From assembly GCF_004362245.1 (NCBI RefSeq), contig NZ_SNWM01000003.1:620001-684000 (forward strand): 64,000 nucleotides of DNA. The letters run 5' to 3'. The position numbers and the translations under genes were made by a program. Of this stretch, positions 5,183-51,046 are shown in pieces. Within the stretch, counting starts at the first letter, position 1; the number at the start of each line of letters is the position of its first letter. This stretch comes from Pedobacter duraquae. Lineage in GTDB: Bacteria > Bacteroidota > Bacteroidia > Sphingobacteriales > Sphingobacteriaceae. The notes below the pieces were generated by a model. That model was not told where the DNA came from. It saw only the letters and a program-made list of their open reading frames with translations, and did not search any database.

Positions 5183-6221
5183 CGACAGCCCGAAAAGATC
5201 CGGCTATGCTTTTCCACCAGAATGGGCACAGCATGAGGCAACATGGTTGAGCTGGCCGCACAAAGAAGCATCGTGGCCGGGAAAACTGGAAACAATATAT
5301 ACTCCCTATTGCCAGTTTATTAAAGCTGTAGCCGAAGGGGAGAAAGTTAGGATTAACATTAACAACGAGGAAACCCGTGCATTTGCCGTTTCGGAATTGG
5401 AAAAGGTTGGTGCCGATCTCTCTAATATTGAGTTTTATTTTAATGCTACAAATGATGCCTGGTGCAGGGATCATGGGCCTGCATTTTTACTAAGTGCAGA
5501 TGGCAAAGATAAAGCAGTTGTTGATTGGGGTTATAATGCCTGGGGTGGTAAATATCCGCCTTTTGATCTGGATGATGTAGTGCCAACAAAAATAGCCAGT
5601 CATTTTAACCTGCAATTATACACTCCTGATATTGTGATGGAAGGCGGTTCGGTAGAATTTAACGGTGCAGGTACAATACTGACGACCACTGCCTGTTTGC
5701 TCAATGAAAACAGAAACCCACATCTTTCCAAATCAGAGATTGAGCAGTACTTGCTGGAGTATTATGGCGCAGAGCAGGTACTTTGGTTAGGAGATGGCAT
5801 TGTTGGAGACGATACCGATGGCCATATCGATGATATTACCCGTTTTGTTAACGAAAATACCGTGCTTACAGTTGTTGAGAGCAATCCGCTCGACGAAAAC
5901 TATATCCTGCTTCAGGAAAATCTGAATGCCTTAAAGGAGATGCGTTTGCCAAATGGAGAAGCACTGAATATTATTAAACTGCCTATGCCTTCTCCGGTAA
6001 TTCATGAGGATACCAGGCTGCCGGCATCGTATGCTAATTTTTATATCGCCAATAAGGTGGTTGTAGTGCCTACATTCAGAGATGTGAATGATAGCATAGC
6101 CTTAGAGATTATCCAGCAGGCATTTCCTGACAGGGCGGTTATCGGAATTGATTCAACAGATATCATCTGGGGACTTGGAAGTTTCCACTGCCTGAGTCAG
6201 CAAGAACCCGCTATACAATAA
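5166..6221 (+). CDS. aguA: Agmatine deiminase
   Basis: Peptidylarginine-deiminase-type enzyme that hydrolyses agmatine to N-carbamoylputrescine and ammonia. Family marks are the N-terminal PEWAQHEATWLSWP block, the GDDTDGHIDD segment and the catalytic Cys342 in GLGSFHCLSQQ near the C-terminus. At 351 residues it is of usual length. The start overlaps the end of aguB by 17 nt, which suggests translational coupling; the second codon is also ATG (5169). fabG follows after 29 nt on the same strand and may be read through. Confidence 0.95.
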   Translation: MMNLFNDSPKRSGYAFPPEWAQHEATWLSWPHKEASWPGKLETIYTPYCQFIKAVAEGEKVRININNEETRAFAVSELEKVGADLSNIEFYFNATNDAWCRDHGPAFLLSADGKDKAVVDWGYNAWGGKYPPFDLDDVVPTKIASHFNLQLYTPDIVMEGGSVEFNGAGTILTTTACLLNENRNPHLSKSEIEQYLLEYYGAEQVLWLGDGIVGDDTDGHIDDITRFVNENTVLTVVESNPLDENYILLQENLNALKEMRLPNGEALNIIKLPMPSPVIHEDTRLPASYANFYIANKVVVVPTFRDVNDSIALEIIQQAFPDRAVIGIDSTDIIWGLGSFHCLSQQEPAIQ

Positions 6222-6250
6222 ATACAATAGAAATAATTTAACCAGATATA

Positions 6251-6994
6251 ATGAAATTATTAGCCGGAAAAACAGCACTGATTACGGGTGCTTCCAAAGG
6301 AATAGGCCGCAAGATAGCGGAAGAATTTGCTAAACAGGGTGCAAATGTTGCATTTACCTATTTGTCGTCAGTAGAAAAAGGAGAGGCACTGGAGCAGGAG
6401 CTCCAGGCATTTGGAACACAAGTTAAAGGTTACCGCTCTGATGCGTCTAAATTTGCTGAGGCAGAACAACTGATTACTTCAATTGTTGCAGATTTCGGGG
6501 CGCTAGACGTTGTTGTCAATAATGCAGGAATTACGAAAGACGGATTGCTGATGCGCATGAGCGAAGAGAATTGGGACGATGTAATCAACGTCAACCTGAA
6601 GTCTGTATTTAACGTTACAAAGGCTGCTTCGAAGATCATGATGAAAGCGCGTAAAGGTGTATTTATCAACATGAGTTCTGTAGTAGGTGTGCAAGGTAAT
6701 GCTGGTCAGGCAAACTATGCTGCTTCAAAAGCAGGAATTATTGGGTTCTCTAAGTCGGTTGCTAAAGAACTGGGATCAAGGAACATCAGGTCGAATGTTG
6801 TTGCTCCAGGATTTATCCGGACGGAAATGACGGATGTACTGGATCCTAAAGTTGTAGAAGGCTGGACTCAGGATATCCCGCTTAAGCGTGCAGGAGAAGC
6901 GGAGGATGTTGCGAACGTTTGTGTGTTCCTCGCTTCTGATATGAGTGCGTATGTGACCGGACAAGTACTGTCTGTGTGTGGCGGTATGCTATAA
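6251..6994 (+). CDS. fabG: 3-oxoacyl-ACP reductase family SDR
   Basis: Short-chain dehydrogenase/reductase that most likely reduces 3-oxoacyl-ACP with NADPH in fatty-acid elongation. It shows the Rossmann motif TGASKGIG (13-20), NNAG (90-93), catalytic Ser142/143, Tyr156 and Lys160 (YAASK) and the FabG-like ending YVTGQVLSVCGGML. SDR specificity is hard to read from sequence, so another hydroxyacyl substrate is possible, but length (247) and motifs fit FabG best. Its transcript ends at a terminator lying inside the 3' coding end of the convergent gene. Confidence 0.85.
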   Translation: MKLLAGKTALITGASKGIGRKIAEEFAKQGANVAFTYLSSVEKGEALEQELQAFGTQVKGYRSDASKFAEAEQLITSIVADFGALDVVVNNAGITKDGLLMRMSEENWDDVINVNLKSVFNVTKAASKIMMKARKGVFINMSSVVGVQGNAGQANYAASKAGIIGFSKSVAKELGSRNIRSNVVAPGFIRTEMTDVLDPKVVEGWTQDIPLKRAGEAEDVANVCVFLASDMSAYVTGQVLSVCGGML

Positions 6995-14368: not shown

Positions 14369-15481
14369 TTACCAGCTCAGCTCTCCTTTGATCAGGTTTA
14401 CGAAATCATCAAACAAATAGCGTGAATCATGCGGGCCTGGAGAAGACTCCGGGTGGTACTGTACAGAAAAGGCTTTCTTGCCTTTCACACGGATACCTTC
14501 GATAGACTGGTCGTTCAAATTGATATGTGTAATTTCAACTTTATCAGAGTTTCTTACCTCGTCAGGAACAACACCGAAACCGTGATTCTGAGAAGTAATT
14601 TCACAGTGATTTTTGATGATGTTTTTTACGGGGTGATTTAAACCGCGGTGACCGTTAAACATTTTCATAGTATTGATGCCGTTGGCTTGTGCCAGTAACT
14701 GATGACCTAAGCAAATACCGAACAATGGTTTGTCGGTTGCCAGGATTGACTTTACAGTCTCGATAGCATAAGGCATCGCCGATGGATCACCAGGACCATT
14801 AGAAATAAAATAAGCATCTGCACCCCAGGCTTCCATTTCCTCAAATGTAGTTTTAGCAGGAAATACCTGTACATACAGGTCTCTCTCGTCAAAATTGCGA
14901 AGGGTATTCTTTTTGATGCCGAAATCCAGGGCTGCAACTTTATAGGTCGCATCTGGAGAACCGTAGAAATAAGGTTCTTTAGTAGATACCTGAGAAGACA
15001 ATTCCAAACCATCCATTTCAGGCACTGAGGCTAGCTTGAGTTTCAGTTCTTCAATGTCGGTAATTTCAGATGAAATGATCGCATTCATCGCACCTTTCTC
15101 ACGGATATGTCTTACCAGTAAACGGGTGTCGATATCTGAGATGCCGACGATATTTTCATTCTGGAAATAGTCCTGGATAGACTCTGAAGCTTCCTTGCGA
15201 CTGTAGCCAATATTAAAATTCTTACAAACCAATCCGGCAATCTTAATGCTGTCGGACTCGATCTCATCTTTATGGATACCGTAGTTTCCGATATGGGCAT
15301 TTGTGGTAACCATGATCTGCCCGAAATAGGAAGGATCCGTAAAGATTTCCTGGTAGCCTGTCATACCTGTATTGAAACAGATTTCTCCAGTTGTAGTGCC
15401 AATTTTTCCGGCTGCTCTTCCGTAAAATACGGTACCGTCGGCCAGTAACAAGATAGCAGGTAACTTGGTGTAATTAGTCAT
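14369..15481 (-). CDS. carA: Carbamoyl-phosphate synthase small (glutaminase) subunit
   Basis: Glutamine amidotransferase subunit that supplies ammonia to CarB for carbamoyl phosphate, used in arginine and pyrimidine synthesis. The N-terminal CarA domain (about 1-150) precedes a class I glutaminase domain with nucleophile Cys257 (FGICLGHQ) and His343/Glu345 (YHPES). At 370 residues it is full length. carB is not adjacent within the window, so the large subunit must be encoded elsewhere. Confidence 0.97.
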   Translation of the reverse strand: MTNYTKLPAILLLADGTVFYGRAAGKIGTTTGEICFNTGMTGYQEIFTDPSYFGQIMVTTNAHIGNYGIHKDEIESDSIKIAGLVCKNFNIGYSRKEASESIQDYFQNENIVGISDIDTRLLVRHIREKGAMNAIISSEITDIEELKLKLASVPEMDGLELSSQVSTKEPYFYGSPDATYKVAALDFGIKKNTLRNFDERDLYVQVFPAKTTFEEMEAWGADAYFISNGPGDPSAMPYAIETVKSILATDKPLFGICLGHQLLAQANGINTMKMFNGHRGLNHPVKNIIKNHCEITSQNHGFGVVPDEVRNSDKVEITHINLNDQSIEGIRVKGKKAFSVQYHPESSPGPHDSRYLFDDFVNLIKGELSW

Positions 15482-15626
15482 GATAATAATCAGAAGTTAG
15501 GGTAAGAAAAGGAAAGAAAAAAGAGGGAATTGCGACAAGATTGCCGCCTATGTAATCAACCAAAATACTGTGATCCAACCCGTTCATTTTCGGGATACAA
15601 AGATAGGTTTTATGGGGAATTAAACC

Positions 15627-15634
15627 TAATTTTG
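15627..15634 (+). promoter_or_regulatory. -7 box of panB
   Basis: TAATTTTG matches TAnnTTTG, 19 nt before the panB ATG, the same spacing as at aguB. Confidence 0.5.
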
Positions 15635-15653
15635 TTCGATAAAACTATAAAAC

Positions 15654-16469
15654 ATGTCTCAGCATAAAGAAGTAAAACGCATCACGACCCATATTCTGCA
15701 GGAAATGAAACAAAGCGGCGAGAAAATTGCCATGCTTACCGCCTATGATTATTCTATGGCGACTATCCTTGATGATGCCGGTCTCGATGTTTTACTGGTT
15801 GGTGATTCTGCTTCAAATGTGATGGCAGGGCATGAGACCACATTGCCTATTACACTGGATCAAATGATCTATCATGCACAGAGTGTGGTGAGGGGCGCGA
15901 GTCGCGCATTTGTGGTTGTCGACCTTCCTTTCGGTAGCTATCAGGGAAACTCAAAAGAGGCCCTGAACTCTGCAATACGTATTATGAAAGAATCCGGTGC
16001 CCATGGTGTTAAACTTGAAGGCGGAACAGAAGTTGTTGATTCTATAGAGCGTATTATTACGGCTGGAATTCCAGTAATGGGCCACCTTGGGCTTACTCCG
16101 CAATCTATTTATAAATTCGGTACTTATACAGTAAGAGCTAAAGACGAAGCAGAGGCTGAAAAACTGAAAACTGATGCGCTGGCATTACAGCAGGCGGGAT
16201 GTTTTGGCGTTGTGCTTGAGAAAATCCCTGCAAAGCTTGCTAAAACGGTGAGCGAAAGCCTGCATATCCCTACTATTGGTATTGGCGCCGGACCAGATTG
16301 CGACGGACAGGTACTTGTTGTTAATGATATGATTGGCCTGACTAAAGGCTTTAAGCCGCGTTTCTTAAGACAATATCTGAACTTGTATGAAGGAATCATG
16401 GGTGCTGCGCAATCTTACATCAAAGATGTTAAAGCAAATGACTTCCCTAACGAAAAGGAACAATATTAA
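15654..16469 (+). CDS. panB: 3-methyl-2-oxobutanoate hydroxymethyltransferase
   Basis: First committed step of pantothenate synthesis: transfers a hydroxymethyl group from methylenetetrahydrofolate to 2-oxoisovalerate to give ketopantoate. The TIM-barrel signatures [36 protein letters not shown] and GHLGLTPQ are all present. At 271 residues it is full length. Its stop codon overlaps the start of the pseudouridine synthase gene by 1 nt (TAATG), so the two are translationally coupled. Confidence 0.97.
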
Positions 16470-17155
16470 TGGCGGTTACCCCATCGGATATACTTTATGA
16501 AGATAACCACCTGATAGCGATCAATAAGCGCGCGGGTGACATTGTGCAGGTTGATGAGACTGGCGACAAGCCCCTGGATGAAATGGTAAAGAGTTACCTT
16601 GTCGCTACCTATAACAAACCAAATACTGCTTTTCTGGGCGTTGTACATCGGCTAGATAGGCCCGTTAGTGGTGTCATCCTGTTTGCTAAAACAAGCAAGG
16701 CGCTCGAACGTATGAACGCTGCATTCAAGAATAGGGAAGTTAAAAAAACGTATTGGGCAGTAGTGAGGAACAGGCCTGCAAAACCCTCCGGAACACTGGT
16801 GCATTGGTTGGTGAAAAACCCGCAGAAAAATGTGGTTACACCACATCTCAGTGAGGTTCCCGGCAGTCAGCGTGCAGAATTAAGTTACAAGCTTATTGGC
16901 GAACTTGGTGGCTATTACCTGATGGAAATTGATCCTTTAACAGGGCGTTCGCATCAAATCAGGGTACAGCTTTCAACTTTGGGCTGTCCAATAGTGGGTG
17001 ATAATAAATATGGATACCCGAGGGGTAGCAGAAAGGGCAGTATCTGCCTGCATGCACGCCGACTTCAGTTTACGCATCCCGTTAAAAAAGAACCTGTAAA
17101 TATTTTCGCGAAGTTGCCTGTTGACGGCTTTTGGGAAAGGTTCGAAAACTTCTAA
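16469..17155 (+). CDS. RluA-family pseudouridine synthase
   Basis: Isomerises uridine to pseudouridine in RNA. The catalytic Asp is in the HRLDRPVSGV motif near residue 59, and RSHQIRVQL near 159 is also characteristic. At 228 residues it consists of the catalytic domain only, without an N-terminal S4 RNA-binding domain, so it is of the small RluA/TruC-like kind; the target RNA position cannot be read from sequence. Coupled to panB by a 1-nt overlap and followed by a bidirectional terminator. Confidence 0.9.
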   Translation: MAVTPSDILYEDNHLIAINKRAGDIVQVDETGDKPLDEMVKSYLVATYNKPNTAFLGVVHRLDRPVSGVILFAKTSKALERMNAAFKNREVKKTYWAVVRNRPAKPSGTLVHWLVKNPQKNVVTPHLSEVPGSQRAELSYKLIGELGGYYLMEIDPLTGRSHQIRVQLSTLGCPIVGDNKYGYPRGSRKGSICLHARRLQFTHPVKKEPVNIFAKLPVDGFWERFENF

Positions 17156-17159
17156 AGCA

Positions 17160-17192
17160 TAAAAAAACCTGGGCTTAACCCAGGTCTTTTGT
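17160..17192. terminator. Bidirectional terminator between rluA-like and GH30 genes
   Basis: Stem ACCTGGG / CCCAGGT with loop CTTAA. T-rich runs follow on both strands (CTTTTGTTT on +, seven T on -), between convergent stops at 17155 and 17193. Confidence 0.88.
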
Positions 17193-18647
17193 TTACCAGA
17201 TATAGGTGCCGACGGCGCCTGCTGCCAGGTTGGTATTGATAGACTTTCCTGCAATCCGGACATTGAAGAATTGCGTTGCCGTATTATTATTAACCACAAT
17301 TAATACCTTTTTGCCTTCGGGAGTTTTAAAAGCAACATTATTCAGGTTGTTGGTAACTGTGGATGCAATACGTACAGAACCAGCCTTTACAAACTTGGAG
17401 GCATGGCCTACAGTATAATAAGCAACATTTCTTACTACGCCAGGGTTAATGGTTAAAGCACCCAGGCAGGTAGTACAGCCACCTACTGTATGTGGGCCAT
17501 AGGATGGATCTGCTGCCAGGTTCCACTCCAACACATTTCTGCTCCAATTCCGCGTAGCACCAATGATCAGGTTAGTAACGTGCCATTTCAAATCTTCAGC
17601 AAAGTTGCCAGGTCCGCCAACCCATTGCTCAGTGAAGTAAATGTTCTTGTTTGGATAAGCATCATGTACAGGAGTTAATGCTGTAATACTCCCCCCATAT
17701 AAGTGAAATGCTGACCCATCTACAAATTCGCGCGCTGCAGGATCCGCTAAAATAGTAAGCGGGTATTCTGGTCTGTCAGCATTATGATCGTAGGTGATAA
17801 TTTTGGTTGTTAATCCAGCAGTTTTAAACGCAGGACCCAATGCCGATTTAATAAATACGGTCTGTGCTGTAGCATCCATATACATGCTAGGGGTATTGTC
17901 TGGATTTAGTGGCTCGTTCTGAACGGTAATGGCATCGATGGTGATGCCCTGCGCTTTCATTGCCTGAATATATTTTACAAAGTATGTTGCATAAGACTGA
18001 TAATATTCTGGTTTAAGACTTCCACCTTTGAAAGAGTTTTTATCCTTCATCCATAAAGGGGCAGTCCATGGAGAACCTAGAATTTTAATTGCAGGATTGA
18101 TAGCGATGATCTTTTTAAGGATCGGAACAAGATCCGTCATCTCCTTACTGATGGAGAACTTGTCTTGAGGAACGTCGGTAGCTCCCGAGCTCAGGTCATT
18201 ATATGTAAAAGTATCAGCACTTAAATCTGAAGCACCAATACTTATCCTCAGATAGTTTACACCGATTGCATTATCATCGTTTGAGAAAAGTTCTTTTAAT
18301 AGGGCATCTTTTTCTGTTGCACCCATGGTGTTGATCAACGTTGCACTTCCGCCGGTCAGCGTATATCCAAAGCCGTCGATAGTCTGAAAAACCTGACTTT
18401 CATCTACGTCGATCACGGGATCGGTATTCATGCTGGAAGAGAAATTGAGGGCGATATTTTGCTTTTGTAACTTAACACTTTGATCACCTCTTGTTATCCA
18501 CAGTGCAACTTCACTGGTCACGGGTACTACTGGTGGAACAACTGGAGGGTCTACGGGCGTAACTGCGGCGTTCTTTTTGGAACAGGATAATGCAGTTATA
18601 AAAATCAGGCATGCGAACACCTGTGCTGACATTCTTTTCATAATCAT
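17193..18647 (-). CDS. Glycoside hydrolase family 30 lipoprotein
   Basis: A TIM-barrel glycosidase of the GH30 glucosylceramidase/endo-1,6-beta-glucanase type, with a C-terminal beta-sandwich typical of the family. The acid/base is Glu245 (VQNEP) and the nucleophile Glu340 (YFTEQW). The N-terminus has a lipoprotein signal with lipobox Cys22 (ITALSC), followed by a Pro/Val-rich linker (about 31-44), so it is probably anchored at the outer membrane. Substrate is likely a beta-linked glucan but cannot be fixed. Several ATGs (18647, 18641, 18632) are possible starts. No SusCD pair is adjacent. Confidence 0.9.
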   Translation of the reverse strand: MIMKRMSAQVFACLIFITALSCSKKNAAVTPVDPPVVPPVVPVTSEVALWITRGDQSVKLQKQNIALNFSSSMNTDPVIDVDESQVFQTIDGFGYTLTGGSATLINTMGATEKDALLKELFSNDDNAIGVNYLRISIGASDLSADTFTYNDLSSGATDVPQDKFSISKEMTDLVPILKKIIAINPAIKILGSPWTAPLWMKDKNSFKGGSLKPEYYQSYATYFVKYIQAMKAQGITIDAITVQNEPLNPDNTPSMYMDATAQTVFIKSALGPAFKTAGLTTKIITYDHNADRPEYPLTILADPAAREFVDGSAFHLYGGSITALTPVHDAYPNKNIYFTEQWVGGPGNFAEDLKWHVTNLIIGATRNWSRNVLEWNLAADPSYGPHTVGGCTTCLGALTINPGVVRNVAYYTVGHASKFVKAGSVRIASTVTNNLNNVAFKTPEGKKVLIVVNNNTATQFFNVRIAGKSINTNLAAGAVGTYIW

Positions 18648-18681
18648 ATTTGGTTATGATAAAGATATGTTTTTTTAAATG

Positions 18682-19728
18682 CTATTTAAAATCAAAATAG
18701 GCAAGCGTGGTTACCTGCTTGTCACTTCTGTTGGCATCACTTATTACTAAAGCTCCTTTTCTAAAAAGCACCATGCCTTCCCAATTATTTTTGTCGGAAG
18801 GGAAGGAGCGGACGGCTTCCCATTGTTTTTTCCCAGTTGCGGAAAGCCGTACAATCCGGGAATAACTCGTCGTTTTTTTCTTTAGATAGTCCCCGTTTTG
18901 AGTCAGCTCTGCTTTCAGGTCCGGGATAGTTTTGCTAATTTCTTTTTCAGCATTCCTGAACATTTCGTTATCGAGGTAGGCCTTATAATCGCCATTCCAG
19001 AAGTAATTAATACCATAAATGGTCCCTTGGGCATCAATCTGGATATCCGTTATCCTGAAAGGTAAAAAGGGGATGTCGATTTTTTCAGGTGCTTTTTTAA
19101 ACGATGGATCGATCAGATAACCGATACCTCCATTGTGCATGGCATTGTATTCATATATCGCTAAAAGCTTCTTTTTTTCTGGTAGATAAGTCAGCGCCTC
19201 GTAGCCAGCATTTTCAACATAAGGATATCTCGCTAACCTCATGAAGTTGACGGCGTCTATCTCAATTGTGCCTAATTTGGTGTTTAAAATTCCTTTGATC
19301 AGGTAACAATAATCTTTGTCATCGTGTGTTTCAATCGATAGATAAACTTCATCGCCGATAAATGTAATTGCCTCGAAACCTTCATAACCTGATTTAATTT
19401 CATCTGGAAGTAGAGCGAGATTTTTTACCTTGATGGTTTTAAACGCGGTAAGTTGCTTATCCTTTCCTTCGATCACACGGGTAATACTATCCGTCAGGAT
19501 GCTATAGATATTAAAAATGCCCTCCAGTTTAGTTTCTTTGTAACTGCCATATTGTGGAATCAAATACAGTCGCCCTTTGTGGCTGCTGAGTCCGGAAAAT
19601 TCTTCATTTACTGAAGCAATCTCCAGGGGAAGTGGGATTGTTTGATACGAACGCTGTGCAAATGCTGCCAGTTGAGGGGATAAAAACCCCAGGCAGAAGA
19701 TAAAAGTTGATATTAGGGCTTTTTTCAC
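18682..19728 (-). CDS. Secreted beta-propeller-like protein, possibly phytase-like esterase family
   Basis: A 348-residue protein with an N-terminal signal peptide (FIFCLGFLSPQLAAFAQ), starting with GTG at 19728. Repeated motifs of the form EFSGLSS, GYEGFEAITF and GYEALTYLPEKKKLLAIYE, about 70 residues apart, suggest propeller blades. They resemble the esterase-like-activity-of-phytase or SdiA-regulated families, but I cannot confirm this. It lies 34 nt upstream of the GH30 gene on the same strand and may be co-transcribed with it. Confidence 0.55.
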   Translation of the reverse strand: MKKALISTFIFCLGFLSPQLAAFAQRSYQTIPLPLEIASVNEEFSGLSSHKGRLYLIPQYGSYKETKLEGIFNIYSILTDSITRVIEGKDKQLTAFKTIKVKNLALLPDEIKSGYEGFEAITFIGDEVYLSIETHDDKDYCYLIKGILNTKLGTIEIDAVNFMRLARYPYVENAGYEALTYLPEKKKLLAIYEYNAMHNGGIGYLIDPSFKKAPEKIDIPFLPFRITDIQIDAQGTIYGINYFWNGDYKAYLDNEMFRNAEKEISKTIPDLKAELTQNGDYLKKKTTSYSRIVRLSATGKKQWEAVRSFPSDKNNWEGMVLFRKGALVISDANRSDKQVTTLAYFDFK

Positions 19729-19823
19729 GGATTAAATATACAAACTGACGTTAAAATACCAATCCTGAAAATGCAGATTAAACCAAACCGCATGTTTTTT
19801 ATCTTAGTTATAAATAACCTTAT

Positions 19824-20228
19824 ATGATGCGCTTTAAAACCATTTCTATCCTTTCTGTTTTGCTGTTAACTGTCGTTGCCATGAGTGCCTTTATGCCTCA
19901 GCAAAAACAGCCTTCGGATTCAAATCTTAAAGTGTTGGCTAAGGATATCAGTCCGGATGATTTATATGATATGATGGAGGGTTTTAATACATCCTTAGGC
20001 GTAAAATGTAATTTCTGCCATTCCGCTAAAAAAGATGATCCAAACAAACTGGATTATGCGCTGGATGGGAAACCAGAAAAGGAAACCACCAGGGCTATGA
20101 TCAAAATGACAATGGAAATAAATGAGAAATATTTCCATAACGCAAGTGCCTACAGTACTAAAGCTGTATTGGCAGTCAACTGTATTACCTGTCACAATGG
20201 GAAGGCACATCCTGAAGCCAAATTTTAA
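19824..20228 (+). CDS. Secreted diheme c-type cytochrome
   Basis: A 134-residue protein with a signal peptide or anchor (about 7-23) and two haem-binding motifs, CNFCH (62-66) and CITCH (120-124). The layout resembles the C-terminal part of photosynthetic reaction-centre cytochrome subunits, a family label often given to small non-photosynthetic Bacteroidota cytochromes. The role is probably periplasmic electron transfer; the partner is unknown. Codons from Met92 onward are contained in the 246-bp repeat that is copied again at 23112. Confidence 0.85.
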   Translation: MMRFKTISILSVLLLTVVAMSAFMPQQKQPSDSNLKVLAKDISPDDLYDMMEGFNTSLGVKCNFCHSAKKDDPNKLDYALDGKPEKETTRAMIKMTMEINEKYFHNASAYSTKAVLAVNCITCHNGKAHPEAKF

Positions 20229-20342
20229 TTTCAAAAACACTTTGTGAATGGGGATTGTTCCAATGAAAACTATCCTTATGAAATTTAGCAAAGTAGAACC
20301 AAAAATGCCTGTCGTAGCCCTGCTTGTGGATATTGCTGTAGG
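20097..20342 (+). repeat. Direct repeat copy 1 (246 bp)
   Basis: This segment is identical to 23112-23357 except for one base (A at 20330, G at 23345), an exact offset of 3015. It spans the last 43 codons of the cytochrome gene, the 19-nt spacer and the first 31 codons of the YtxH-like gene. Confidence 0.97.
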
Positions 20343-20379
20343 TTTTTCTCATTTTTTGCTAATTTTATTCCTACTATAG
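20248..20379 (+). pseudogene. 5' fragment of the YtxH-like gene fused to insert sequence
   Basis: Begins like the intact gene at 23263 (MGIVPMKTILMKF...) but leaves homology after 32 codons, reads FSHFLLILFLL from insert DNA and stops at 20379. One substitution (Gly to Asp at codon 28) distinguishes it from the intact copy. Probably a by-product of the insertion. Confidence 0.8.
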
Positions 20380-23111
20380 TAATCTTCTTTGCTCTCTAAT
20401 GTCTTACATATTTTGATAAGCTAAAAAACAGTAGTAAATGGGACGCTAGTTTCATCTCGACTGCTCACCGTTTGAATTAAAACGCCTCTGTCTGCAATAA
20501 AGATGAATAGGACGAGAAATCTATTGGAAATTATGCTAAAGCTAGGGATATTCTAATTAATTTACGGTCATCATTTTTTAATACATGCAATGGAAAGTAA
20601 CAATGACCCAGTAATTTATCAATATTTAAAAATTGAAGAAGAATTAAATATTCCGATCGGTGATAGCTTTTCGGCGAATGAACCAGCTAGTCTAAAAAAG
20701 AAATTAAACGGACGACTTGCGTTAGATGGCGAAGAAATGCAGGGTATAAATGAAAAAAACCAATATGGTGGCTATCCGGGTTTCGATTCTAGCTCGGCAA
20801 CTAGTTATTTTCAGAATACAGTAGGCGATATAACCTTTAACGTGATAAATGAAGCAACAGGCGAATCCCTTAGTTATAAAACGGTTTTCGGAGTAACAGA
20901 TTTTGATGTAGATGGAGTTTACATAAAAAAAGAAACGACCGGATCTAATGCGGGAAGATACTTGAAATTGGATTTAAAAAATGGGTTTTTAAAAGCTAAA
21001 TATTATGGAGTCAAGGGCGATGGAATAAGCGATGATACCGAAAGCTTAAGGAATGCTTTGATTTCTCATAGCAAATATAAGGTGCCTCTCTTTTTTGATG
21101 AGGGATTATATATCATAAATCACAACAATTGGACGTCTTCACTTGAACTTAACTATGTAAATGTTATAGGTGTTGGAAACGATTTTTCAAAAATTAAAGT
21201 GGACAGCCGTGTGTTTCAAAATTTCATAAAACTAACTGATAACTCAATTTGCATCCTCCATAAGATAGCTATCGGAGGATTTTTAAATGTTATTTTTTCA
21301 GAAGATAAAGTTTGTCATCTTTCGATTTCAAAGTGCAAGTTCTTTAATAATAGAGAATTTAGCGTTTATGTTAAAGAAAGAACTATGGCAGCAAATTCTG
21401 AAGTAGTATTTGCTAATTTGTCGGACAATTTGATAGAAAATAGCTCTGGATTTGCTTTGCAAGGACTGATATCAAAAAGTGCAATAGCTACTGGAAATCA
21501 AATGTACAATGTACAAAGAGACCTAACTTTATGGGATATTTCCAATGGTTATAGAGTTCAGGGGATTTGTATTGGCGATCTGAGTAATGCAGAGCCAGAT
21601 TATGGTCAAAATTTAACTACGCAAATTATTATTTCAAATAACACTATCGAAAAGTTGACTAATCAATCACCTGTTGGCTCAAGCAATTATTATTCTACTA
21701 ATGCGATCGCGGCTTCCGGCAGAAACGTTATAATATCGAACAATGCTATAAAGGCACTTATATCAAGTAGAAACGATGATGTAGAGGCAATTTACACAAA
21801 AATGGTGGAAGGCGTTGTTGGCTTTAACACAATAGAAGACGGAACCATGGGAAATTCTATATCTACTGCTTCAATTGCAATTAAAGGCGTCAGGATTGAC
21901 AATCCAACCAATCTTCCTGCGTGTAATAATATCCAAGTTATTGGAAATGTTTTGCTAAACAAAACTGGTAATACCGGATGCGTTGGAATACAAATATATG
22001 GCGGAAGCAATATTGAGGTATCAAATAACACGGCTGATGGATTTCTTTATGCTGGAATGAGAGTTTTAGGCGGTAAAAACATCTCGCTTACAAGAAATAA
22101 CATATTAAATATGGATGCTTCGCAAGCTATTACTTCTGAGTTGTCTTCCATAGATGGGTATTTAAGAATCGAAAATAATAATATATCAGATATTCGAGGT
22201 ACTAATTCCACAACGGCATTACAACTTATTAAGGTCACTGCCAGTGTTACATCTATCACCGATTTAAAAGTTATTGGAAATCATATATATATATCTTTAG
22301 ATAATACTAAATATAACACCGCGTCTCTAATAGCAGTGGATGCAGTAACTGGGATCAACAGATTAAGCTGCCATGATAACGAGTACATTATCTTGTCATC
22401 TAACAGTTCTACAAATGTAAATTTAAATGGCCTCAATATTAGGGTAGTTAACTCTACAGGTTTTGCTAAAAATATTTCTGTTTCTAATAATAGGTTTAAA
22501 ACAGATGTGCCTTTGGTTAATATGAGGCATTTCACTATTAATGGATCAGCCAATATTGCGGATAACTCTTCTTTAGTACCTAATCTTCAATTAGGAATTA
22601 ATTACAATAACGGAGTTGAGTACAATAATCCATTTAAAAGAATAGCTCCGGATGCCTCATTTACTGTCACTCAAGTAGATAAATATATCACGCTCTCTTC
22701 AATTGCAGCAAGTAGAATTGTTACATTACCCAGCGCTAATAGCTGTCTCCTTAGAACGATTATACTACATAATATAAATACATCATCGTTTGCCTGGGGA
22801 GTTACTCCCGGTATAAGAGACTATTCCGGCAATCTATATTCGTTATTAGACAATAAAACAATTTATATGATTCAGAGTGATGGGACAGCGTGGTATATAA
22901 TGTCGAAACAGGGGCCAGTCTAAGTCTTCTTTTTATTTGATGAAATTGTTAAAGAGGTGAAATTTTAAGATTTTTACTTTTGAACAGAGAAAAAGGAAAT
23001 ATCGTTACGCAATTTATCGCACAGAAATTAGGTGTTCCAATAAAAGGTGAAAAATGCCAACAACATCTCGTGCACTAAAAAAGCATGAGTAACAGAACAT
23101 TTCAACATTTG
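20343..23111 (+). mobile_element. AT-rich insert flanked by 246-bp direct repeats
   Basis: About 2.77 kb between two direct repeats of host sequence, visibly more AT-rich than the flanks. It holds one long gene (beta-helix protein) and two non-coding stretches, 20380-20589 and 22924-23111, in which I see no gene, terminal inverted repeats, integrase or transposase. The repeat layout lets both host genes stay intact, as expected for single-crossover integration of a circular molecule carrying the same locus, or for site-specific integration with an unusually long shared segment. A tandem duplication or assembly error cannot be excluded. Confidence 0.7.
20590..22923 (+). CDS. Right-handed beta-helix protein, phage-tailspike-like
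   Basis: A 777-residue protein without a signal peptide. An N-terminal domain (about 1-135) is followed by a pectate-lyase-3-type opening (YYGVKGDGISDDTESLRNAL, about 137-157) and then many NN/SNN-containing parallel beta-helix rungs (about 170-670). The C-terminal domain (about 690-777) resembles those of phage tail proteins and includes VTLPSANSC. The order head-binding-like domain, beta-helix, small C-terminal domain is typical of tailspikes that bind or cleave surface polysaccharides. No catalytic residues can be assigned. It is the only gene of the insert. Confidence 0.75.
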   Translation: MESNNDPVIYQYLKIEEELNIPIGDSFSANEPASLKKKLNGRLALDGEEMQGINEKNQYGGYPGFDSSSATSYFQNTVGDITFNVINEATGESLSYKTVFGVTDFDVDGVYIKKETTGSNAGRYLKLDLKNGFLKAKYYGVKGDGISDDTESLRNALISHSKYKVPLFFDEGLYIINHNNWTSSLELNYVNVIGVGNDFSKIKVDSRVFQNFIKLTDNSICILHKIAIGGFLNVIFSEDKVCHLSISKCKFFNNREFSVYVKERTMAANSEVVFANLSDNLIENSSGFALQGLISKSAIATGNQMYNVQRDLTLWDISNGYRVQGICIGDLSNAEPDYGQNLTTQIIISNNTIEKLTNQSPVGSSNYYSTNAIAASGRNVIISNNAIKALISSRNDDVEAIYTKMVEGVVGFNTIEDGTMGNSISTASIAIKGVRIDNPTNLPACNNIQVIGNVLLNKTGNTGCVGIQIYGGSNIEVSNNTADGFLYAGMRVLGGKNISLTRNNILNMDASQAITSELSSIDGYLRIENNNISDIRGTNSTTALQLIKVTASVTSITDLKVIGNHIYISLDNTKYNTASLIAVDAVTGINRLSCHDNEYIILSSNSSTNVNLNGLNIRVVNSTGFAKNISVSNNRFKTDVPLVNMRHFTINGSANIADNSSLVPNLQLGINYNNGVEYNNPFKRIAPDASFTVTQVDKYITLSSIAASRIVTLPSANSCLLRTIILHNINTSSFAWGVTPGIRDYSGNLYSLLDNKTIYMIQSDGTAWYIMSKQGPV

Positions 23112-23242
23112 ATGATCAAAATGACAATGGAAATAAATGAGAAATATTTCCATAACGCAAGTGCCTACAGTACTAAAGCTGTATTGGCAGTCAACTGTAT
23201 TACCTGTCACAATGGGAAGGCACATCCTGAAGCCAAATTTTA
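23112..23242 (+). pseudogene. 3' fragment of the cytochrome gene
   Basis: Copies the last 43 codons and stop of the cytochrome gene, including one CITCH haem motif. It starts by chance at an ATG but lacks a signal peptide and the first haem site, so it cannot be a functional exported cytochrome. Confidence 0.85.
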
Positions 23243-23357
23243 ATTTCAAAAACACTTTGTGAATGGGGATTGTTCCAATGAAAACTATCCTTATGAAATT
23301 TAGCAAAGTAGAACCAAAAATGCCTGTCGTAGCCCTGCTTGTGGGTATTGCTGTAGG
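23112..23357 (+). repeat. Direct repeat copy 2 (246 bp)
   Basis: Second copy of 20097-20342 with one mismatch. Its right end continues into the intact YtxH-like gene, so this copy marks the right edge of the insert. Confidence 0.97.
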
Positions 23358-23562
23358 CGCCGCCTTCGGAATCCTTTTTGCTCCGAAATCGAAGTCCAGA
23401 TCAAAACATGCCACAACAACCAAACCTATACCCGATCTGCGGGCACATAGCCTTGAAGTTTCAGAGAAGCTGACGGGATCGCCTGAGCAGATTCCCGATC
23501 TTACAAAAACAACTTTAAAACAGACAGGGCCAAAATCGCGTCAGCTCCCTATAGAAGCATAG
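23263..23562 (+). CDS. YtxH-like small membrane protein
   Basis: A 99-residue protein with one hydrophobic segment containing the YtxH-type motif VGIAVGAAFGILFAPKSK (about 27-44), followed by a basic, Pro/Thr-rich tail. YtxH-family proteins are small stress-associated membrane proteins of unclear role. Several in-frame ATGs (23263, 23278, 23293) make the start uncertain. Its first 32 codons lie in the direct repeat. Before the insertion it probably followed the cytochrome gene with a 19-34 nt spacer, as an operon partner. Confidence 0.75.
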   Translation: MGIVPMKTILMKFSKVEPKMPVVALLVGIAVGAAFGILFAPKSKSRSKHATTTKPIPDLRAHSLEVSEKLTGSPEQIPDLTKTTLKQTGPKSRQLPIEA

Positions 23563-23580
23563 GAAGCTGACATCAATATG

Positions 23581-24771
23581 CTACATCCAGATTAAAGGGT
23601 GCCTGATCGGTAGATTCCTGATTACCTCCTCAACCTTGGGGTCGTGGTCAAGTTTTGCCCAGGCGGCATACCAATCTGTATTTTGATAAGCTGCGGCGCC
23701 AAAAAGTAAAAACGGTTGCGCAACCGGCCAGTTGTCCCAATACATCACATCAGCTTTCAAAGGCCAGGTGCTTTTGTCAGCGATGTATGGGTACAAATAA
23801 GCAATTCCCTTTTTAATTGACTTTCCATCAGCAGTTTCATAAGCCCACAAGTTTTGTGAGGATGAAGAAAGGATCTGACATAGGGTAACCATGGCATCGA
23901 GGTTGAAGATTGAATAACCATAGGGCTTAGTCCGCGAAAGCTCTAGCGGGAAGCTTCCATCAAGCCCCATTTGGTTAGGAAGCAGAACCTGCTTAAACCG
24001 ATTTGTACAAGAGTCAAGCATTGCTTTATTGCCACATAATTTGGCGAACGAAGCGACCTGCATTGTCCAACAGGTAGTATGGTTATTTTTAACGTTTTTC
24101 TCCTGCAGGCCTTTCTGACTGGTGTTTAGCCAGGTAGTATATGCGTTGAACCAGCTCTTTATTCCTTCGGTAGTTTTAGGATCCAGGGCTGCTGATTTTT
24201 CCATCACAATTACACCTTGCGCAACTTCCATCAGGTGAATGGTATCTATGATTCCATAATTTCTGCCAGTGAATAACCCTTTAACAGCCTGACTATATTC
24301 CAGGTTGGGGTTCATTAAGGTCTCGCGGTTGATAAACCAGGCACGTAGATGGACTACGGCTTGTTTCACATATTTGTCATCGTGTGTAATTTTATAAGCA
24401 GAAGCCAGTGCGCCAATAATTTTGCTGAACCTGATCATCGCTTTACGATGTTCTACAAAGTTATCGGGGTTGGTTAACCCGTCTCTGTTGATATAAGGTC
24501 CATCAGGATTTTTAGGATCCGGCCAGAAATAATCTGCTTCGGAGAAAAAATCATGTAACCCACCAGCACTTCTTGCAGAACTTGCAGCAGTAATTGTTAC
24601 CGGTTTTTGTTGCATTGCCCAGGCTGCTTCGGCCATAATCTGATTTTTTAATAGTGCTTCAGCTTTCTGATAAGTGTCAGAATTGGCATGTACTGGCGTC
24701 GTCGCCTTTGCAGTAAGCGTTAAACAGACAACTAACGCAACGATTGTGCAGGAAAGTTTATTCATAAACAT
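23581..24771 (-). CDS. Secreted alginate-lyase-family protein
   Basis: A 396-residue protein with a signal peptide (LSCTIVALVVCLTLTAKA) and an alpha/alpha-barrel of the alginate lyase family PF05426. Recognisable blocks are DYFWPDPKNPDGPYINRDG, the His/Asn-rich KNNHTTCWTMQ and YSIFNLDAM. It would act in the periplasm on uronate-containing polymers, although this family also includes proteins of other or unknown specificity. The DoxX-like gene lies 4 nt upstream of the ATG at 24771 on the same strand (start could be 24765), so the two form an operon. Confidence 0.8.
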   Translation of the reverse strand: MFMNKLSCTIVALVVCLTLTAKATTPVHANSDTYQKAEALLKNQIMAEAAWAMQQKPVTITAASSARSAGGLHDFFSEADYFWPDPKNPDGPYINRDGLTNPDNFVEHRKAMIRFSKIIGALASAYKITHDDKYVKQAVVHLRAWFINRETLMNPNLEYSQAVKGLFTGRNYGIIDTIHLMEVAQGVIVMEKSAALDPKTTEGIKSWFNAYTTWLNTSQKGLQEKNVKNNHTTCWTMQVASFAKLCGNKAMLDSCTNRFKQVLLPNQMGLDGSFPLELSRTKPYGYSIFNLDAMVTLCQILSSSSQNLWAYETADGKSIKKGIAYLYPYIADKSTWPLKADVMYWDNWPVAQPFLLFGAAAYQNTDWYAAWAKLDHDPKVEEVIRNLPIRHPLIWM

Positions 24772-24775
24772 GGTA

Positions 24776-25150
24776 TTAAGAGTTTAGGTTATCTTTTTTA
24801 CTGATCCACCATGCCCAGGCAATTAGTACAAACTGAAACGGCAGGCGGATATAAGCTATTGTTTTGCTGCCGATGGCAGGATGAGTACGTAGCGTGTCAA
24901 TAATATGCAGGGGCAGAAAGATAATCATCAGCCAGAATACACCGATTGCTGCGCGGTATTTAAATCGGGGCAAAAAAAGGCCAACACCCAGAATTAGTTC
25001 TGCTGCTCCGCCAAGGTAGTTAGTTAAGGAACCAGGCAGAAAGGCCGGAATAAATGGATAGTAGCTGGTAGGGTTAATGAAATGGTTAAGTCCGGCTACA
25101 ATCAGAATGATCCCGAAAACAACAGTCAGTATATATTTGGTTCTTTGCAT
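24776..25150 (-). CDS. DoxX-family membrane protein
   Basis: A 124-residue protein with four predicted membrane helices and the DoxX-like features of a buried Asn-His pair (GLNHFINPTSY) and GAAELILGVGLFLP. DoxX-type proteins are small quinone- or redox-associated membrane proteins with ill-defined roles. It is first in a pair with the alginate-lyase-family gene, 4 nt apart; no functional link is known. Confidence 0.8.
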   Translation of the reverse strand: MQRTKYILTVVFGIILIVAGLNHFINPTSYYPFIPAFLPGSLTNYLGGAAELILGVGLFLPRFKYRAAIGVFWLMIIFLPLHIIDTLRTHPAIGSKTIAYIRLPFQFVLIAWAWWISKKDNLNS

Positions 25151-51038: not shown

Positions 51039-51046
51039 CTTTACTG

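Follow-up and report, generated by a model that had tools for sequence, protein, structure and literature searches.

In a 64,000-nucleotide stretch of the Pedobacter duraquae genome (contig NZ_SNWM01000003.1, positions 620,001 to 684,000; referred to here as the window), a 2,769-bp insert with a single long open reading frame (ORF) for a spike-like protein of 777 aa lies between two direct copies of a 246-bp host segment, designated R. The copies occupy positions 20097-20342 and 23112-23357, their starts are 3,015 bp apart and they are identical in 245 of 246 bases, the sole mismatch being an A at 20330 versus a G at 23345. R comprises the 3' end of a cytochrome gene, a short gap and the 5' end of a YtxH-like gene. 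Both host genes are intact, the cytochrome gene on the left and the YtxH-like gene on the right, and each copy of R brings with it a defunct piece of the respective other gene. The original prediction for this locus had described two 246-bp repeats with a one-base difference that duplicate the cytochrome/YtxH junction and leave both genes complete, one on each side; its coordinates proved to be exact, and both complete genes are present in the ORF list. The arrangement is a natural case of known insertion-duplication and requires no new mechanism. The explanation that we favour, with roughly evenly balanced confidence, is a one-off event in which a ligated circle would have entered the locus by a RecA-mediated single crossover.

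All genes, frames and repeats described for the locus are read on the forward strand. The complete cytochrome gene (19824..20228, 134 aa; CytoC_RC, E 8.3e-11) ends within the left R, which, like the right R, was defined by repeat search and alignment. A truncated YtxH-like frame of 43 aa, read from the sequence (20248..20379), runs from the left R into the insert and carries the A at 20330. The insert (20343..23111), described from the ORF list, its GC content and a test of end structure, contains the spike-like ORF (20590..22923), which was taken from the ORF list and from weak profile matches and has a GDG-DDT motif. At the right junction, the ORF list holds a small frame of 52 aa (23085..23243), in which an ATG supplied by the insert is fused to the last 43 cytochrome residues and which is probably fortuitous. 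It is followed by the complete YtxH-like gene (23263..23562, 99 aa), assigned with an E-value of 5e-5 and 24.1 bits, under the Pfam cut-off of 37.5. The insert is AT-rich, with a GC content of 0.32-0.36 in 500-bp windows lying fully within it; to its left (19000-20249) the GC content is already low (0.36-0.39), and values of 0.40-0.47 and 0.42-0.46 were determined for 16000-18999 and 23250-24999, respectively.

The insert shows no features of a mobile element. No recombinase-like or transposase-like ORF was recognised by eye among its frames of at least 50 aa, which agrees with the earlier description of a 2.77-kb AT-rich insert lacking a recombinase, and its ends have no more structure than shuffled sequence. 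A transposon or insertion sequence does not match what was found, namely no transposase-like ORF, a single copy, a duplication as long as 246 bp and, touching the left end of the insert, an inverted pair of at best 25 nt at 76% (among the best 25 of 27 pairs). Occurrence of the insert at unrelated loci, a finding that had been named beforehand as speaking against its reading as a repeat-flanked insertion, was not borne out: the whole 3.26-kb region of R, insert and R is present once in the genome (13 contigs). An ungapped search of the 64-kb window found no other direct repeats of at least 40 bp, and no part of the window matches Rfam.

Since R holds the cytochrome and YtxH sequences side by side, the uncut order must have existed once. 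To find the empty site, the cytochrome-R DNA was compared with 145 genomes of the genus, of which 41, including the own genome, gave a match. Fourteen of the matching loci and one locus of a named Pedobacter (53% protein identity) were read. One of these 15 loci, that of genome G363, has a YtxH-like ORF next to the cytochrome gene, in the same direction and with no insert; in P. duraquae, the insert is flanked on both sides by direct copies of a stretch that an empty site carries without interruption. A search for relatives with an uncut junction had been proposed with the original prediction; the uncut gene order is present in G363, and the other 14 loci lack it. The G363 locus is also informative for the mismatch between the two copies of R, which lies 12 bp from the R end, with different neighbours beyond it in each copy. 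The affected codon specifies aspartate in the left fragment; the intact gene at the right has glycine, as does, judged by eye, G363. Because glycine is shared by the intact gene and G363, the A at 20330 is probably the derived base. A derived base in a fragment that is under no evident constraint suits a young duplication.

A circle that integrates by a single crossover leaves foreign DNA between direct copies of its target. In the explanation that we favour, the spike gene would have been linked, on a non-replicating fragment, with a short stretch of the species' own cytochrome-YtxH region, and ligation would have closed this fragment into a circle of 3,015 bp, consisting of the insert and one R. 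A single RecA-mediated crossover between the 246-bp arm and the chromosome could then have added the insert and one R, leaving the host genes whole. Crossing over in reverse between the two copies of R would free this circle again and leave an empty site, so that the arrangement is expected to be recent, unstable or under selection. For Escherichia coli, a published report (PMC3240628) describes two fates of linear, non-replicating DNA that has homology at one end, namely degradation, or ligation followed by integration through RecA-dependent single crossing-over. A test for duplication was positive in 56 of 60 Lac- clones, and the 14 duplications that were sequenced measured 109-950 bp (PMC3240628). 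The present locus resembles that system in that foreign DNA is found between direct repeats of part of a homologous locus and no site-specific recombinase is involved, and the 246 bp of R fall within the range of the 14 clones. It differs in that the E. coli experiments used a designed suicide plasmid and selection, whereas here we deal with a natural event whose donor and route we infer. Among the three routes that the original prediction had offered, integration of a circle is the best fit and has this precedent from the laboratory, in which the duplications measured 109-950 bp; the circle itself is postulated.

Two other known processes are similar in part. Homology-facilitated illegitimate recombination likewise imports foreign DNA by combining a single homologous anchor with an illegitimate join (PMC3240628, PMC5361080); it predicts a deletion in the target (PMC3240628), whereas a duplication is present on both sides of the insert in our case. 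In transformation merodiploids of Streptococcus pneumoniae, incoming DNA also gives rise to a tandem duplication, and in one clone, R3022, the duplication is very small and a cassette has been added. Unlike in the present case, the duplications in that study (PMC3784515) are chiefly about 100 kb or larger and arise between pre-existing repeats.

The same final structure is also expected if a chromosome break whose ends were offset by 246 bp was closed in one step around a foreign fragment by non-homologous end joining, with no circle involved; such ends could result from long staggered nicks that were filled in, or from breaks in two sister copies. The genome encodes Ku (170.4 bits), just two joins would be necessary and a homologous donor would not, and the 20 bases past R at either end have no evident sequence in common. 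A fill-in duplication of 246 bp is, on the other hand, long for this type of repair. We consider end joining unlikely, although the circle model expects the same picture and the data give no separation between the two.

A further reading concerns the assembly, either as an artefact or as a real 3,015-bp circle of insert and R that exists beside an empty chromosomal site and that the assembly incorporated into the contig. By reasoning, a repeat above short-read length yields an identical assembly graph in either case, and the genome is in 13 contigs. The one-base difference identifies the copies of R as two distinct copies, which speaks against an artefact, although a free circle would also explain the mismatch. 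Such a circle would bear no recognisable replication gene, and the DNA of the insert has no match in plasmids and matches of only 23-28 bp, a size expected by chance, in phages. In view of these points we regard the assembly reading as quite unlikely.

The insert itself probably carries a passenger gene of phage or small-provirus origin, as judged from the relatives of its N-terminal part, which are spike genes in integrase-bearing proviruses. The GC content of the ORF is 34.4%, compared with 39.8-45.0% in 19 host ORFs chosen from the window, and its codon-usage score is inside the range of these 19 ORFs; it is by base composition only that the ORF looks foreign. Weak profile matches were obtained to the tail spike family phrog_2234 (E 0.013) and to the pectate-lyase-like PF12708 (29.2 bits at a cut-off of 27, not listed by hmmscan). 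The N-terminal part resembles lone genes of genomes G263 and G221 (26% and 35% identity in a three-row alignment), and a model built from these sequences matches spike genes in small proviruses of three genomes of genus g18 (L090, L091 and L094). The designation as tailspike-like in the original prediction is supported by these profiles and by the likeness to provirus spikes, each of which is weak evidence. The C-terminal stretch has weak matches in large frames of 3741, 2006 and 661 aa. A single-sequence structure prediction gave a mean pLDDT (predicted local distance difference test) of 32.7, too low to use, and a promoter scan found 14 sites compared with 16.5 expected.

No relative of the whole spike was confirmed by tblastn in 50,697 phage and 72,556 plasmid records, and none was found in GTDB or IMG/VR contigs by a pattern search with six peptides. 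Matches to the spike were obtained in eight of 301 genomes of the family and in five of 395 genomes of the class, each count including the own genome; the other matches are short domain matches. The N-terminal alignment gave 23 weak matches in IMG/VR (27-42% identity), mostly near the GDG motif. None of five phrases for a lone tailspike occurred in the papers searched.

The three g18 proviruses contain a phage integrase, a weakly matching terminase-like ATPase and the spike gene; a lysozyme family was confirmed in that of L090, no tail genes were noticed by eye in any of the three, and two proteins of the L091 provirus have no tblastn match in the 50,697 phage records. The L090 and L094 proviruses adjoin hscB, and that of L091 does not. 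The lone spike-like gene of G263 (L049:8660-10201) is located near hscB, with one small gene between them and no other provirus genes, and is possibly a spike-only remnant. These observations would suit the assumption that the P. duraquae insert, too, is what remains of a larger phage or provirus, which would have used homology at R for its entry and would then have lost everything except the spike gene. By eye, no further phage gene fragment is readable in the non-coding ends of the insert, a loose comparison of these ends with 99 relatives (E up to 10) returned only short matches of noise level, and the locus yielded no provirus of this kind. We therefore regard a provirus remnant as very unlikely.

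The two copies of R record one event and are not a property of the spike gene, since none of the seven other N-terminal relatives that were tested has flanking repeats and the remaining cases belong to one array family or to tandem spikes. In this test, same-strand repeats of at least 150 bp were searched between the 3-kb flanks of spike-type ORFs, of which 37 were listed and 34 tested (three had too little flank); the loci had been fetched for their spike hits, are not a random sample and cover part of the rows of the N-terminal search. Repeats were detected for nine of the 34 ORFs, namely the one in the window, six from the repeat arrays found in genus g16, and two that lie between tandem spikes. 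Control ORFs at the same loci had repeats in 17 of 231 cases, of which three are slicing artefacts at locus ends and nine lie in the same g16 arrays. On this basis, the idea that spike genes generally have flanking repeats was rejected.

The test also bears on the idea of a mobile cassette that is moved by a recombinase acting in trans. The presence of one gene, the lack of an own recombinase and the clean occupied site would fit such a cassette, and in genus g16 spikes are repeatedly found as cargo flanked by repeats. The single copy, the unstructured ends and the lack of repeats at all seven other N-terminal relatives argue against it, as they do against the satellite dependent on another recombinase that the original prediction had considered. 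The genome has a suitable object for comparison about 28 kb from the insert, a prophage at C3:671046-710091 (window position 51046 to beyond the end of the window) with genes for an integrase, a terminase, a tape measure protein and a tail fibre. It is flanked by a 49-bp direct repeat with copies at C3:671046 and 710043, the right one inside a tRNA-Phe gene. The insert resembles such tRNA-gene integrative elements in having direct repeats of host sequence at both sides, but it has neither an integrase nor the 49-bp repeat; R is far longer than this repeat, which is itself absent from R. No recombinase-like ORF was found in the insert and the eight longest prophage-end repeats are absent from R, other recombinases of the genome not having been tested. 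Movement in trans is thus extremely unlikely. Two more direct connections to the prophage were also rejected: R does not contain its att core, and a displaced piece of the prophage is not indicated by the one match of 28 bases and the one weak tblastx match that the insert shares with it.

Several points weigh against a one-off integration of a circle. The uncut order was found in just one of the 15 loci read, and the best-scoring other genome at the locus is no closer than 73% DNA identity over 299 bp, with higher identity confined to pieces of less than 80 bp. No donor molecule of the insert was found among plasmids, and phages gave chance-size matches only. The position of a spike gene beside exactly this host segment needs a prior illegitimate join, which has left no trace, and RecA crossover over 246 bp is inefficient. 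Finally, flanking repeats are commoner at spikes (9/34) than at controls (14/228, the three artefacts dropped); leaving aside the tandem spikes and the window itself, we attribute this excess to one array family, but it is a hint in the other direction. If integration of a circle nevertheless applies, the locus is a clean natural example of a process known mainly from the laboratory, in which foreign DNA enters via a short homologous arm, with no enzyme of a mobile element and with no damage to the genes at the site. Such events, if common, would help to explain lone phage genes amid housekeeping genes. As to their frequency here, the two copies of R stand alone in 510 kb of the contig, in which a same-strand megablast search detected no other direct repeats of at least 60 bp and at least 85% identity.

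The arrays of genus g16, which belongs to the same family, deserve a description of their own. Their repeat (L096, L099, L105, L173-L192) is about 645 bp long and consists of 135 bp of upstream sequence, a gene for 148 aa and about 60 bp of downstream sequence. The 148-aa protein is lumazine-binding-like (22.0 bits versus a cut-off of 22.1); its gene is present in 36 of 93 genomes (E up to 1e-20), with six or more copies in 27 of the 93. All 92 copies examined in 12 stretches of 10 genomes have one orientation per stretch. An alignment of 65 full-length copies has abrupt ends, and conservation is about equally high in the 5' non-coding bins (0.74-0.98) and in the coding part (0.70-0.93); the 3' part, terminator-like by eye, is less conserved (0.53-0.73). 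One repeat copy had no Rfam match at E up to 0.5. The cargo between copies is variable and measures 0.4-23 kb; its 256 ORFs form 173 clusters and include spike genes, and three genomes share a block of 12,040 bp located between copies, at least one of its neighbours being different. No description of these arrays was noticed among the eight literature matches listed.

The link of these arrays to the window is by analogy only, and neither their repeat nor their spikes are close relatives of those of the window. It can be imagined that R-cargo-R units are self-homing cassettes that need no recombinase, in which RecA alone would excise a circle and insert it in any empty site of a conspecific; the window would then represent the founding stage with one cassette and the g16 arrays the grown stage. 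RecA alone could suffice for this, since the host sequence at both sides of the cargo is present once in every conspecific. We give this idea only a slim chance.

Lone tandem spikes were observed at three further g16 loci (L100, L107 and L104). They have about 135-375 bp of upstream sequence and N-terminal codons in common and differ downstream, and are like a bank of alternative spikes. At L102 (G253), a direct repeat of 0.9 kb (5881-6790 and 15316-16226, 96.7% identity) extends over part of a gene of 432/436 aa; with several genes between its copies, it is another candidate for a repeat-cargo-repeat arrangement.

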